Positions 15,720 through 20,496 of a stretch of 25,209 bases of DNA are shown in pieces; positions within the stretch are counted from its first letter, which is position 1; each line of letters starts with the position of its first letter. The position numbers and the translations under genes were made by a program. The notes beneath the pieces were generated by a model, which saw nothing but the letters and a program-made list of their open reading frames with translations, was not told the DNA's origin and searched no databases. Origin of the DNA: a virus; IMG/VR virus record IMGVR_UViG_3300010389_000122, positions 1 through 25,209 of that record; one strand, given 5' to 3'.

Positions 15720-16178
15720 TTATAAATCATCAAAATCACCATCAGAATTATCTAATTCTTCATTAGGATCTATATCCATATAGTCTTCATACGCTTTAGT
15801 AATCTCTCTATTTACTTCTTCTAGTATGTATGAATAAATCCTCATAGTTTCAGAAGCTATCCCTATATCTAGCTCTTCTAAAATATTCCAAACTATATTG
15901 CTTGACTCAAATACAATCAAGTCTCTGATGTCAGGCGCGTTTTCATCATCACTTACTAGAAATATACTTACGATACCCGTCCCTTTTAAAGGATGCTTTA
16001 TCAACGAGGTCATTGAATTAAACCCAGGATCTGTAGTAATGGAGAGGCCAGGATACTTATCTTCAATAATTCTAGGTGCAATAAAAGCGTCATTACAAAA
16101 AAACACATCATAAATAACAGGAAAAAGAGGTAGCTTAATTTGCTGATGAAAGATCTTACCATGACTATTGTTTTCCAT
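15720..16178 (-). CDS. hypothetical protein (152 aa), possibly a degenerate peptidase-like fold
   Basis: The ATG at 16178 gives 152 residues; the longer frame would begin with TTG. The N-terminal half is beta-like (IKLPLFPVIYDVFFCNDAFI). The middle IVFESSNIVWNILEELDIGI is followed by SETMRIYSYILEEVNREI and an acidic tail. This spacing recalls phage proteins I have seen with a zinc HE..H helix, then GI....SEE..AY. Here the His positions are replaced (FESSN), so any such enzyme would be inactive; this is a weak analogy. It is the leading gene of the minus-strand block. A TATATTTG -7-like box precedes it. Confidence 0.5.
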   Translation of the reverse strand: MENNSHGKIFHQQIKLPLFPVIYDVFFCNDAFIAPRIIEDKYPGLSITTDPGFNSMTSLIKHPLKGTGIVSIFLVSDDENAPDIRDLIVFESSNIVWNILEELDIGIASETMRIYSYILEEVNREITKAYEDYMDIDPNEELDNSDGDFDDL

Positions 16179-16196
16179 ACGTTTGATTTTAAAAAA

Positions 16197-16204
16197 CAAA
16201 TATA
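16197..16204 (-). promoter_or_regulatory. -7 element (TAnnTTTG) for the first minus-strand gene
   Basis: The complement of 16197-16204 reads TATATTTG, the Bacteroidota -7 consensus, 18 nt before the ATG at 16178. No TTTG is present 19-21 nt upstream, so only half of the promoter is supported. Confidence 0.35.
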
Positions 16205-16586: not shown

Positions 16587-16801
16587 GCATGCTTTTTCTT
16601 GCAGAAAAATAAAAAAGCATGCTTTTCCTACAGAAAGTTTGACACTTTCTGATCCCACTGCCCTCACACTCTCCTGCACACACAAGCTCACATGCTTGTC
16701 TTGTACTTGTCAGACAAGACAACATGCTCACTTGTTCCAACACAGTCACAGACCTCCTCCTCACTTATAAGGCGCATGATCTTATCAGATCAACTGCCTT
16801 A
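16587..16801. other. array of strong hairpins between the divergent gene blocks
   Basis: Four consecutive perfect inverted repeats are seen: GCATGCTTTTT/AAAAAGCATGC (16587-16622, 11 bp), CAGAAAGT/ACTTTCTG (16631-16651, 8 bp), ACAAGC/GCTTGT (16682-16699), which competes with TTGTCTTGT/ACAAGACAA (16696-16722, 9 bp), and TAAGGC...GCCTTA (16768-16801) enclosing TGATCT/AGATCA. The stretch is C-rich and atypical of the genome. It may be a replication origin, a structured RNA leader, a packaging site or a stack of regulatory sites. It ends just before the first early promoter. Confidence 0.6.
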
Positions 16802-16814
16802 ACGTTCCGCTCTT

Positions 16815-16846
16815 TATTATTCCATCCTTGTCTTAAACTTGTAATC
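16815..16846 (+). promoter_or_regulatory. early promoter element, copy 1
   Basis: TATTATTCCATCCT, then TGT, CTT, five bases and TGTA (16840-16843). It matches five other copies with identical internal spacing. The ATG of the 47-aa gene lies 21 nt after TGTA, leaving a short AU-rich leader that ends in TTTATC before the start codon. Confidence 0.75.
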
Positions 16847-17593: not shown

Positions 17594-17624
17594 AGAGAGA
17601 GCTTTAACGGCTCTCTCTTGTTTA
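17594..17624 (+). terminator. terminator of the two-gene unit
   Basis: AGAGAGAGC (17594-17602) pairs with GCTCTCTCT (17610-17618) with a 7-nt loop, followed by a short T-rich tail. It abuts the next promoter copy. A smaller hairpin GGTTCA/TGAACC lies upstream at 17549-17566. Confidence 0.75.
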
Positions 17625-17653
17625 TTATTCCATCCTTTGCTTGTTACTGTATT
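17623..17653 (+). promoter_or_regulatory. early promoter element, copy 3
   Basis: TATTATTCCATCCT, TTG, CTT, five bases, TGTA (17648-17651). The ATG at 17674 follows 22 nt later after an AU-rich leader ending GTATC. Confidence 0.75.
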
Positions 17654-17673
17654 AACCAATTAATTTATGTATC

Positions 17674-17970
17674 ATGAACTACGGAATTAAGTTCTTTGGC
17701 CAGCATGCCATTATAAAACTGCGTTGTAATGTCACACCTGAAGACCGTGACAGAATCAGGGAACAGTATCCTGACTTGCACGTTTACCATACTGGTAGAC
17801 GCACTGCAATAGAGGGCTGTTTACATGCGTCAGAATATCACGGCTTTAAGAAGTACGTTGATGACTGCACTATTAGCTACAAGATTGCAGAGCTTGAGGA
17901 CAAGCGTGCAAGTCTTTGGGCTCCTGAAGGTACGTTCATCATGGATATAGATGATGACTTACCGTTCTGA
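17674..17970 (+). CDS. small early protein with SSB-like C-terminal tip
   Basis: A 98-aa protein whose last nine residues, MDIDDDLPF, differ by two conservative changes from the C-terminal peptide of E. coli SSB (MDFDDDIPF, known to bind the chi subunit, PriA, RecO, RecQ, exonuclease I and others). The body (about 1-85: FFGQHAIIKLRCNVTPEDRD, DLHVYHTGRRTAIEGCLHAS) is too short and does not look like a complete SSB OB-fold. Inference: it may recruit or occupy host SSB-interacting proteins, or be a small DNA-binding protein using the same docking code. It has its own promoter (copy 3) and terminator. Confidence 0.7.
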   Translation: MNYGIKFFGQHAIIKLRCNVTPEDRDRIREQYPDLHVYHTGRRTAIEGCLHASEYHGFKKYVDDCTISYKIAELEDKRASLWAPEGTFIMDIDDDLPF

Positions 17971-18696: not shown

Positions 18697-19119
18697 ATGA
18701 AAGCAACATTATTGCGTCAGTACCCTTCTAAGAAGAACATTGGTCAAACTAACTACACTTATGTGTTAGACGGAACTCCTGAAGAGAATGCACTTTATGC
18801 AGAATCTCAGGGAGACTTCCTACGCACACATGATGACGGTAGATACCTGTTCTTCACTGACAAGTTTGGTGTCACAGAGGTTAAGTTCTCATCTAAAGGA
18901 GAACCGTTTGCGGATACGTCATCATATGACAACGCTAACAGCCTTATTGACCAACTTCCTGACGGTATTCTCAAAGAGAAAACTGCGGAGGCTATGGCTC
19001 AAGCACTACTTGCTCAGGCAGGCTTTAGTGCTAAGGCACAGGCAGTCATTCAGAAGTTTGACAAACCTGCATCTGAACCTGCAAAGGCAGATGACGCAGA
19101 GGACTTAGGTACTCTGTAA
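18697..19119 (+). CDS. conserved phage protein, paralogue A, with acidic C-terminal tail
   Basis: A 140-aa protein homologous to the gene at 20098. Shared blocks are RQY near the start, ENALYAESQGDFLR, YLFFT, SSKGEPFADTSS and a C-terminal KPASEPAKADDAEDLGTL. A beta-rich N-terminal domain (about 1-70) is followed by helices (about 75-120) and a disordered acidic tail ending in a hydrophobic Leu. I recall this family from other phages but know no function. It has its own promoter (copy 5) and terminator. The tail has the general logic of a docking peptide, as in SSB-like proteins, but a different sequence. Confidence 0.7.
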   Translation: MKATLLRQYPSKKNIGQTNYTYVLDGTPEENALYAESQGDFLRTHDDGRYLFFTDKFGVTEVKFSSKGEPFADTSSYDNANSLIDQLPDGILKEKTAEAMAQALLAQAGFSAKAQAVIQKFDKPASEPAKADDAEDLGTL

Positions 19120-19450: not shown

Positions 19451-19753
19451 ATGGCAACAAAGAAAGTACCTCAAAGAAGAAATAGCAAAGCCGGTAAGTC
19501 TACTGGCAAGAGCAGGTCTGCTAAATACTTTGCAAAGAACAAGGCAGCCAGAGATAAAAAGAAGAAGTATGATACTGCGTACCACAGCTCACCTGAGCGT
19601 AAGAAGTACAGAGCCAAACTGAATAAGGTTACCAGAAAGAAGAGTATACCCGGTAAGGACGTAAGCCATACTAAATCCGGTAAGCTAGTAAGAGAGAAAA
19701 GATCTACTAATAGGGCGCGTAACGGTAAGAACGGTAAGAGCACTAAGAAGTAG
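19451..19753 (+). CDS. lysine/arginine-rich conserved phage protein (100 aa)
   Basis: A 100-aa, extremely basic protein. The core YDTAYHSSPERKKYRAKLNK, then GKDVSHTKSGKLVREK and STNRARNGKNGKSTKK, matches a family of small basic proteins I recall from many phages. The DVSH motif and NRARN end are characteristic. The function is unknown; some are annotated as structural. The N-terminus (MATKKVPQRRNSKAGKS) resembles that of the 101-aa late basic protein. The ATG at 19451 is preceded by ATATTAACTGTAT. No clear terminator follows. DNA or RNA binding is likely from composition. Confidence 0.65.
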   Translation: MATKKVPQRRNSKAGKSTGKSRSAKYFAKNKAARDKKKKYDTAYHSSPERKKYRAKLNKVTRKKSIPGKDVSHTKSGKLVREKRSTNRARNGKNGKSTKK

Positions 19754-19869: not shown

Positions 19870-20097
19870 AGTGTTATCAGTATACGCCTTGTTAGCTACT
19901 ACCGCAGGGAAGCAGATCCCTTAAATGCAGATAAGAAGCATTAGTTTATAGCTTAACAGGCCTATAAGATTACAAGCTTACACAGTTGGATAAGCACATG
20001 AGTATACCCCATCCCCTACTTGCACAAGTTGTGGATAGGCATATGAAAGCTTATCAGTCAAATAGTTTTATTGTTTAACCCTAAAAAGAAAATCAAG
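19870..20097 (+). other. long leader or ncRNA region before paralogue B
   Basis: The 344-nt stretch 19754-20097 contains no convincing gene. After promoter copy 6 there are about 230 nt of leader with small hairpins (GGGA/TCCC near 19908-19921) and AGTATAC at about 19877 and 20000, with a third copy before the promoter near 19760. It also has CCATCCCCTACTT at about 20008, a DnaA-box-like TGTGGATAG at about 20031-20039, and a 26-codon frame (19998-20078) that could be an upstream ORF. It ends with a CCTAAAA...AATCAAG leader. Confidence 0.4.
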
Positions 20098-20496
20098 ATG
20101 AAAGGGACAAAAATCAGACAGTACCGTAAGGATAACGGTAATCTAGTACACGTGTATGCAGTTAGCGGAACAAAGCAGGAAATTGCATTATTTGAAGAAT
20201 GCCAAGGAGATAACTTGGTAGTTGATAACGGACAGCCTTTATGGTTTACCGTTAATTATGCTGGTGAGTCTACAGACTTAGTAGCTACTAGTAAGGGTAA
20301 CATCATTGCTGATACTAGCAAGATTGATGCTGCTATGTCATTAGCAGATCAGTATGCAGGTACTGCAACTGGTGATGCTATTGCGGCTAGATTAGCAGAT
20401 CAGCTAATTGGTGGCTTGTTTGCTAGTAAGCCTGCCAGCGTACCAGCTCCTCAGAAAGAGGCAGAAGAGTCTTCAGAAGACTTTGGTACACTGTAA
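20098..20496 (+). CDS. conserved phage protein, paralogue B, with acidic C-terminal tail
   Basis: The ATG at 20098 gives 132 residues; an in-frame TTG at 20071 would add nine but breaks the match with paralogue A. Shared blocks are MKGTKIRQY, ALFEECQGDNL, LWFT, SKGNIIADTS and a C-terminus KPASVPAP...SSEDFGTL. The domain plan is as in paralogue A: beta-rich N-terminal half, Ala-rich helices (about 85-110), acidic tail. The two genes are about 1 kb apart with small genes between, so they likely arose by local duplication and diverged. Function unknown. It is preceded by a long leader and followed by a strong terminator. Confidence 0.7.
   Translation: MKGTKIRQYRKDNGNLVHVYAVSGTKQEIALFEECQGDNLVVDNGQPLWFTVNYAGESTDLVATSKGNIIADTSKIDAAMSLADQYAGTATGDAIAARLADQLIGGLFASKPASVPAPQKEAEESSEDFGTL

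Follow-up and report, generated by a model that had tools for sequence, protein, structure and literature searches.

Why should a small phage protein in which no SSB can be detected end in the peptide on which bacterial SSBs gather their partners? The SSB C-terminus (SSB-Ct) is the hub on which the enzymes of bacterial genome maintenance dock; PriA, RecO, RecQ, DnaG and UDG are its classical partners. The question is raised by P98, a 98-aa protein encoded at positions 17674–17970 (+ strand) of a 25,209-base IMG/VR virus fragment, referred to here as the window. The open reading frame and its translation, which ends ...GTFIMDIDDDLPF, established that a 98-aa protein terminating in MDIDDDLPF is real, as the original prediction had it. 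The coordinates given there for the tip (17944–17970) are slightly shifted, as they leave out the Met codon and take in the stop; the nine codons of this putative SSB-Ct-like docking peptide occupy 17941–17967 (+) and are followed by TGA at 17968–17970. The near-exact likeness to the E. coli SSB tip that had been described also stands, as MDIDDDLPF and MDFDDDIPF are equal at seven of nine positions and the E. coli tip hexapeptide is DDDIPF (PMC5872125).

The tip was compared, as had been proposed, with SSBs of Bacteroidota, and the identical sequence DIDDDLPF ends SSBs of Bacteroidales and Flavobacteriales, as well as those of Balneolaceae and Sphingomonas. A pattern search of 84,980 prokaryotic genomes for DIDDDLPF followed by a stop returned 55 stretches, 48 of which were resolved to ORFs, and an HMM of the SSB core, applied with the tip cut off, assigned 41 of these 48 to SSB. 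Among the remaining seven, four and a truncated fifth resemble DUF3127 (by eye), and two are unrelated. Proteins of Balneolales/Balneolaceae that resemble DUF3127, again by eye, end in exactly DIDDDLPF (L120, L136, L151 and L164). The Bacteroidota tip collection was preselected by pattern and does not allow the frequency of DIDDDLPF in the phylum to be estimated. Higher counts obtained with an HMM that included the tail (47/48 genome ORFs and 52/117 viral ORFs) were set aside because matches to the tip alone were scored as SSB; trimming the tail from the models gave 41/48 and 40/117. Judged by its sequence, the acidic P98 tip, ending in Pro-Phe, is a genuine SSB-Ct-type sequence.

P98 has this tip in common with bacterial SSB (PF00436) but differs from it in other respects: it is 98 aa in total, has no detectable SSB or OB domain, and is one of many tip-bearing bodies in its clade. 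Searches of Pfam and PHROGs returned no match, with nothing below E 0.3, including the gp32-like, DUF669 and other PHROG SSB families; an SSB-core HMM without the tail did not match P98, and an SSB model with tails included made significant contact only at the last 12 residues. Direct homology searches (tblastn on phages and plasmids, a degenerate-pattern scan of IMG/VR, PHROGs and Pfam) yielded nothing usable, and the SSB of LBR48, at E 3, was rejected as a match that is not significant and for which the tip is the likely source. The AlphaFold2 model of P98, built with two sequences, is of low confidence throughout (pLDDT 50.6; residues 67–98 below 50), has an E-H-E-E-H-E order with a disordered tail, and gave no significant match in Foldseek. 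The earlier description of the body as unlike an SSB is borne out by these searches and by the non-OB topology of this low-confidence model. An ordinary OB-fold, the outcome that was to count against the idea, did not appear in a model of pLDDT 50.6, and P98 is likely, if not proven, to be something other than an OB-fold. With a net charge of 0 and a pI of 7, the body is not obviously DNA-binding as judged from its composition.

The window is assigned to an environmental crAss-like phage (Crassvirales) since its head protein matches phrog_11589 (E 9e-35) and, in tblastn, annotated crAss-like major capsid proteins, and its terminase matches phrog_6681 (E 1e-51). Its clade resembles the described crAss-like phages in the major head protein, the terminase, a UDG and replication genes of the DnaB type (PMC7886860), but it is environmental, and the phage collection contains no isolate close to it. 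From the terminase as first anchor, and then from conserved early neighbours, about 30 records of related phages were gathered. No close nucleotide relative spanning P98 was found, and L002, whose terminase is 99% identical, stops at window position 16801. One relative, G003, is a contig of 109,874 bases that is apparently circular, its early genes continuing across the contig ends as they do in L103. The G003 strand equivalent to that of P98 encodes DnaB, a Toprim primase, a helicase and UDG, and G003 also encodes a PDDEXK nuclease. Its UDG is clearly related to E. coli UDG, with the chain of structure 3uf7, a complex of UDG and an SSB peptide, among its relatives. The original prediction had also called for a comparison with any SSB in the rest of the phage; in 32 records of the clade the search for PF00436 recovered no SSB, while positive controls did match. 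The text of a 2021 survey of crAss-like phages makes no mention of SSB (PMC7886860).

The earlier description of P98 as an early protein finds support of an indirect kind. P98 lies on the strand opposite to that of the structural genes, the equivalent strand of G003 carries the replication genes, and P98 is preceded by a repeated leader and flanked by terminators of its own. The 46-nt leader (17623–17668, +; TATTATTCCATCCT...TGTATTA..., repeat families D1/D2), a probable early promoter/leader, has further copies at 16815, 17027, 18087 and 18643, upstream of early ORFs, with an ATG 27–51 nt downstream of the TATTCCATC core of the leader copies. One terminator-like hairpin lies 5′ of the leader (17594–17618, +), and another, followed by a T-run, is directly 3′ of P98 (17977–17998, +). 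Because it has its own leader and is flanked by terminator-like hairpins, P98 was interpreted as a one-gene cassette. A different repeated leader precedes the G003 equivalents of the early ORFs in the window.

Downstream of P98 lies a conserved two-copy early family, p18697, which served as a synteny anchor; each of the 17 distinct related phages has it at this locus. The first member in the window (18697–19119, +) ends ...AEDLGTL and the second (20071–20496, +) ends ...SEDFGTL; the tails of the family are variable and often acidic, as in the copies of G003 (...EEEFPFE) and G020 (...EEEVPFETDESSDVSDL). Between both members is a small, conserved basic protein (19451–19753, +), 79% identical to its L103 equivalent over the alignment, which provided a further synteny marker. 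The AlphaFold2 model of p18697 (pLDDT 69) has a β-β-α-β-β-β-α-α topology without a significant fold match; an OB-fold SSB is not claimed for this family, which is possibly a replication protein. Two other neighbours are recorded here. Positions 21330–22733 encode a 467-aa protein, conserved in G003, that matches phrog_850 ("RNA-binding protein") and Pfam DUF7788 and DUF2828, and positions 15720–16199 encode a homologue of the protein at L103 5579–6028, in which the zinc-peptidase-like motif HEAVH of the L103 protein is replaced by FESSN and seems lost.

Is the tip kept in the relatives of P98? A weak syntenic homologue is found in L103/G003, and in G003 this counterpart is a 125-aa protein, directly before the homologue of window 18697–19119, with the end MEDIFSDELPW. 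The two proteins are 22% identical over 89 aa, with a blastp E of 5e-4 in a 13-sequence set and a phmmer E of about 0.1–0.5 in local gene sets, so that homology is weak and rests largely on synteny. Homologues without a conserved tail had been named as evidence against the idea, and the outcome was divided: in the nearest syntenic relative an acidic-LP-aromatic tip persists, Phe being replaced by Trp, while more distant P98-like proteins, which have only an N-terminal motif in common with P98, have no such tail. The latter (in L207, L213 and L219_4550) were not taken as proof either way, as their overall homology is unconvincing.

A broader answer came from the clade as a whole, in which gene calls were scanned for the pattern [DE][DEN].?[ILVFM]P[FWY] at the C-terminus and the expectation was obtained by shuffling the last 40 residues. 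Genes were called by simple rules (ATG starts, a minimum of 45 aa, greedy non-overlap), so tip counts may shift slightly; narrower motif searches were abandoned because the residues before LPF vary and tips were missed. In the first records, four of 1,404 unique gene calls carried the tip, versus 0.05 in shuffles. These four come from four phages: P98 itself, its G003 counterpart, and proteins of 118 aa in G020 (ADNDFPF) and 74 aa in G018 (DEEDILPF). All of them lie beside the same locus. Adjoining the G018 tip protein is a protein of membrane type (L087 6476–6853, −) that carries the doubled motif DIPFEDIPFED close to its end. Applied unchanged to neighbourhoods newly fetched by means of the p18697 family, the pattern identified five more proteins in three phages, where 0.013 were expected. 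Over 30 records, 11 strict tips were found in 1,807 unique gene calls, against 0.085 in shuffles and 0.16 from the internal rate. Tip-like C-termini are thus about 100-fold above shuffled expectation in this clade and are not due to chance.

None of the 11 tip bearers is more than 7.5 kb from a gene of the p18697 family, a clustering with a Fisher p of 6e-6 (3e-5 when the distance is set at 3.5 kb). With QDLPF in G039 and G040 counted as clear loose forms, the tip occurs in 11 of the 17 distinct phages with the locus visible, and 5 of the 17 have no tip protein within the sequence covered. The original idea concerned one protein, and the tip proved to recur in kind in its nearest syntenic relative, in mostly unrelated small proteins and in PcfJ-like proteins. 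At least eight body types carry it: the P98-like proteins (98/125 aa), a 74/72-aa family, the G020 protein (118 aa), proteins of 68 and 118 aa in G044, 88 aa in G045, and 79 and 102 aa in G049, and the PcfJ-like proteins, of which that of G040 matches PF14284 (E 1.8e-6) and those of G038 and G046 were assigned by similarity to G040. The two G044 proteins are adjacent, unrelated early proteins (L238 5343–5699 and 5781–5987; 118 and 68 aa) with the tips IDDLPF and DDDLPF. In the PcfJ-like pair G038/G040, the body is 95.4% identical over 327 aa and the linker 35% over 20 aa, while the last four residues, DLPF, are identical; in the 74/72-aa pair G018/G039, LPF is kept at 34% identity overall. A variable linker with a fixed tip is also characteristic of real SSB tails, and the sequence comparisons, together with the enrichment, indicate that the acidic stretch and hydrophobic-Pro-aromatic end at the free C-terminus are under selection. 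The tip is better regarded as a tag that belongs to the locus and is independent of the body than as a feature of P98 alone.

What such a tip marks in other phages bears on the main rival explanation, in which P98 is itself a small, non-orthologous phage ssDNA-binding protein whose tip connects the phage ssDNA that it coats with the enzymes that process it. An IMG/VR scan with one codon choice gave at least 117 ORFs ending in DDDLPF, and 40 among the 117 listed are PF00436-type SSBs by core HMM. Of 65 listed ORFs left unassigned by the tail-inclusive HMM, many match ssDNA-binding families in PHROGs (phrog_1192, 19; phrog_378, 15; phrog_224, 14; overlapping) or Pfam gp32 (19) and DUF669 (7), with single or few matches to, for example, DUF3127, SpoVG, HNH and DnaB helicase. 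One phage DnaB-type helicase with an intein ends in DDDLPF, placing an SSB tip on a helicase (L282 8015–10036, −). These matches suggest that in phages most bearers of the tip are ssDNA-binding proteins, of several folds, so ssDNA metabolism is the general prior for a protein that ends in it, and the lack of a PF00436 SSB in the 32 clade records speaks for the same explanation. However, whereas HK620 SSB (NDYPPF) and the gp32-like and DUF669-like DDDLPF proteins, all phage-encoded with an acidic LPF/PPF tip like P98, are ssDNA-binding by family, P98 matches none of these families, and its body is neutral, with a non-OB model of low confidence. The tip occurs on a variety of unrelated bodies and some phages lack it, which is not how an essential SSB would behave, and the adjacent p18697 family, often acidic-tailed and found throughout, is a better replication-protein candidate. 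We regard this explanation as unlikely.

An explanation that we hold equally improbable is that the tip docks on a phage-encoded enzyme, such as UDG or primase, making P98 an accessory of the phage replisome or repair machinery. The replication and repair enzymes encoded by G003 offer possible partners, and there is a precedent in HK620, in which Sak4 requires the NDYPPF tail of HK620 SSB for binding (PMC5928155), but the close likeness to host-type SSB tips would be unneeded for a purely phage-internal contact. That the acidic-LPF end is a coincidence, or serves an unrelated purpose such as a degradation signal or charge, is very improbable and has largely been refuted statistically: acidic tails are common in the region and several family tails end in an acidic residue and Leu, but the enrichment over shuffles, its out-of-sample replication, the clustering at one locus and the retention of the tip across a diverged linker all stand against it.

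In the reading that we prefer, and to which we give an even chance, P98 is a self-contained early accessory protein whose body displays, at its C-terminal end, a docking peptide of the SSB-Ct type. The peptide itself, its identity to real SSB tips, the absence of a detectable SSB in the body, and the recurrence of the tip on different bodies at one locus are matters of sequence. That the tip docks in one way or another, whether for occupation or redirection of enzymes or for their recruitment, seems probable. In the proposed mechanism, the terminal Phe would insert into the SSB-Ct pocket, basic and hydrophobic, of the enzymes that maintain the genome of a Bacteroidota-type host, with PriA, RecO, RecQ, DnaG and UDG as candidate partners, and an early flood of tips in the cell would occupy host SSB partners or draw them off host SSB. 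This last step, in which the host enzymes are occupied or redirected, is given a chance at or just under even; in a close alternative outcome of the same docking, the same enzymes would be recruited to phage DNA. Because the tip alone is common to all bearers while the bodies differ widely, the tip is favoured as the working part, carried by a body and acting by occupation or redirection. RecBCD/AddAB, which had been suggested as a target, receives no special support here. Phage proteins aimed at host DNA-repair enzymes are known in gp5.9 and Abc2, which act on RecBCD itself (PMC9836394), whereas P98 would act by way of the SSB docking pocket.

Several observations weigh against the preferred reading. 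A small protein offers one tip where an SSB tetramer offers four and would be the weaker of the two, so competition would need high P98 abundance. The phages without a tip protein in the sequence covered, the weak P98–G003 homology, largely based on synteny, and the predominance of SSBs and DNA-metabolism proteins among the DDDLPF proteins of other phages, which favours a DNA-handling role, point the same way.

The open-licence literature searched contained no description of a non-SSB early phage protein that bears an SSB-Ct peptide. A hub peptide on a non-SSB body would give phages a novel means of competing for SSB-partner enzymes, of redirecting them or of shielding against them. Phage SSBs have been reported as triggers of the Nhi, Hachiman, retron Eco8 and Septu defences (reviewed in PMC12904381). 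The tip proteins are natural, ready-made peptides with which SSB-partner contacts in Bacteroidota might be probed or inhibited, and the motif-hopping pattern makes the role of the tip in phages directly testable. More tentatively, and with some doubt on our part, the clade may keep, at a single early locus, an SSB-Ct tag that can be transplanted and that passes between unrelated small proteins, and PcfJ-like proteins, as the bodies turn over, serving in host takeover as a decoy for SSB-partner enzymes. If true, this would constitute viral short-linear-motif mimicry in bacteria, in which the motif, and not the protein, is the heritable unit.
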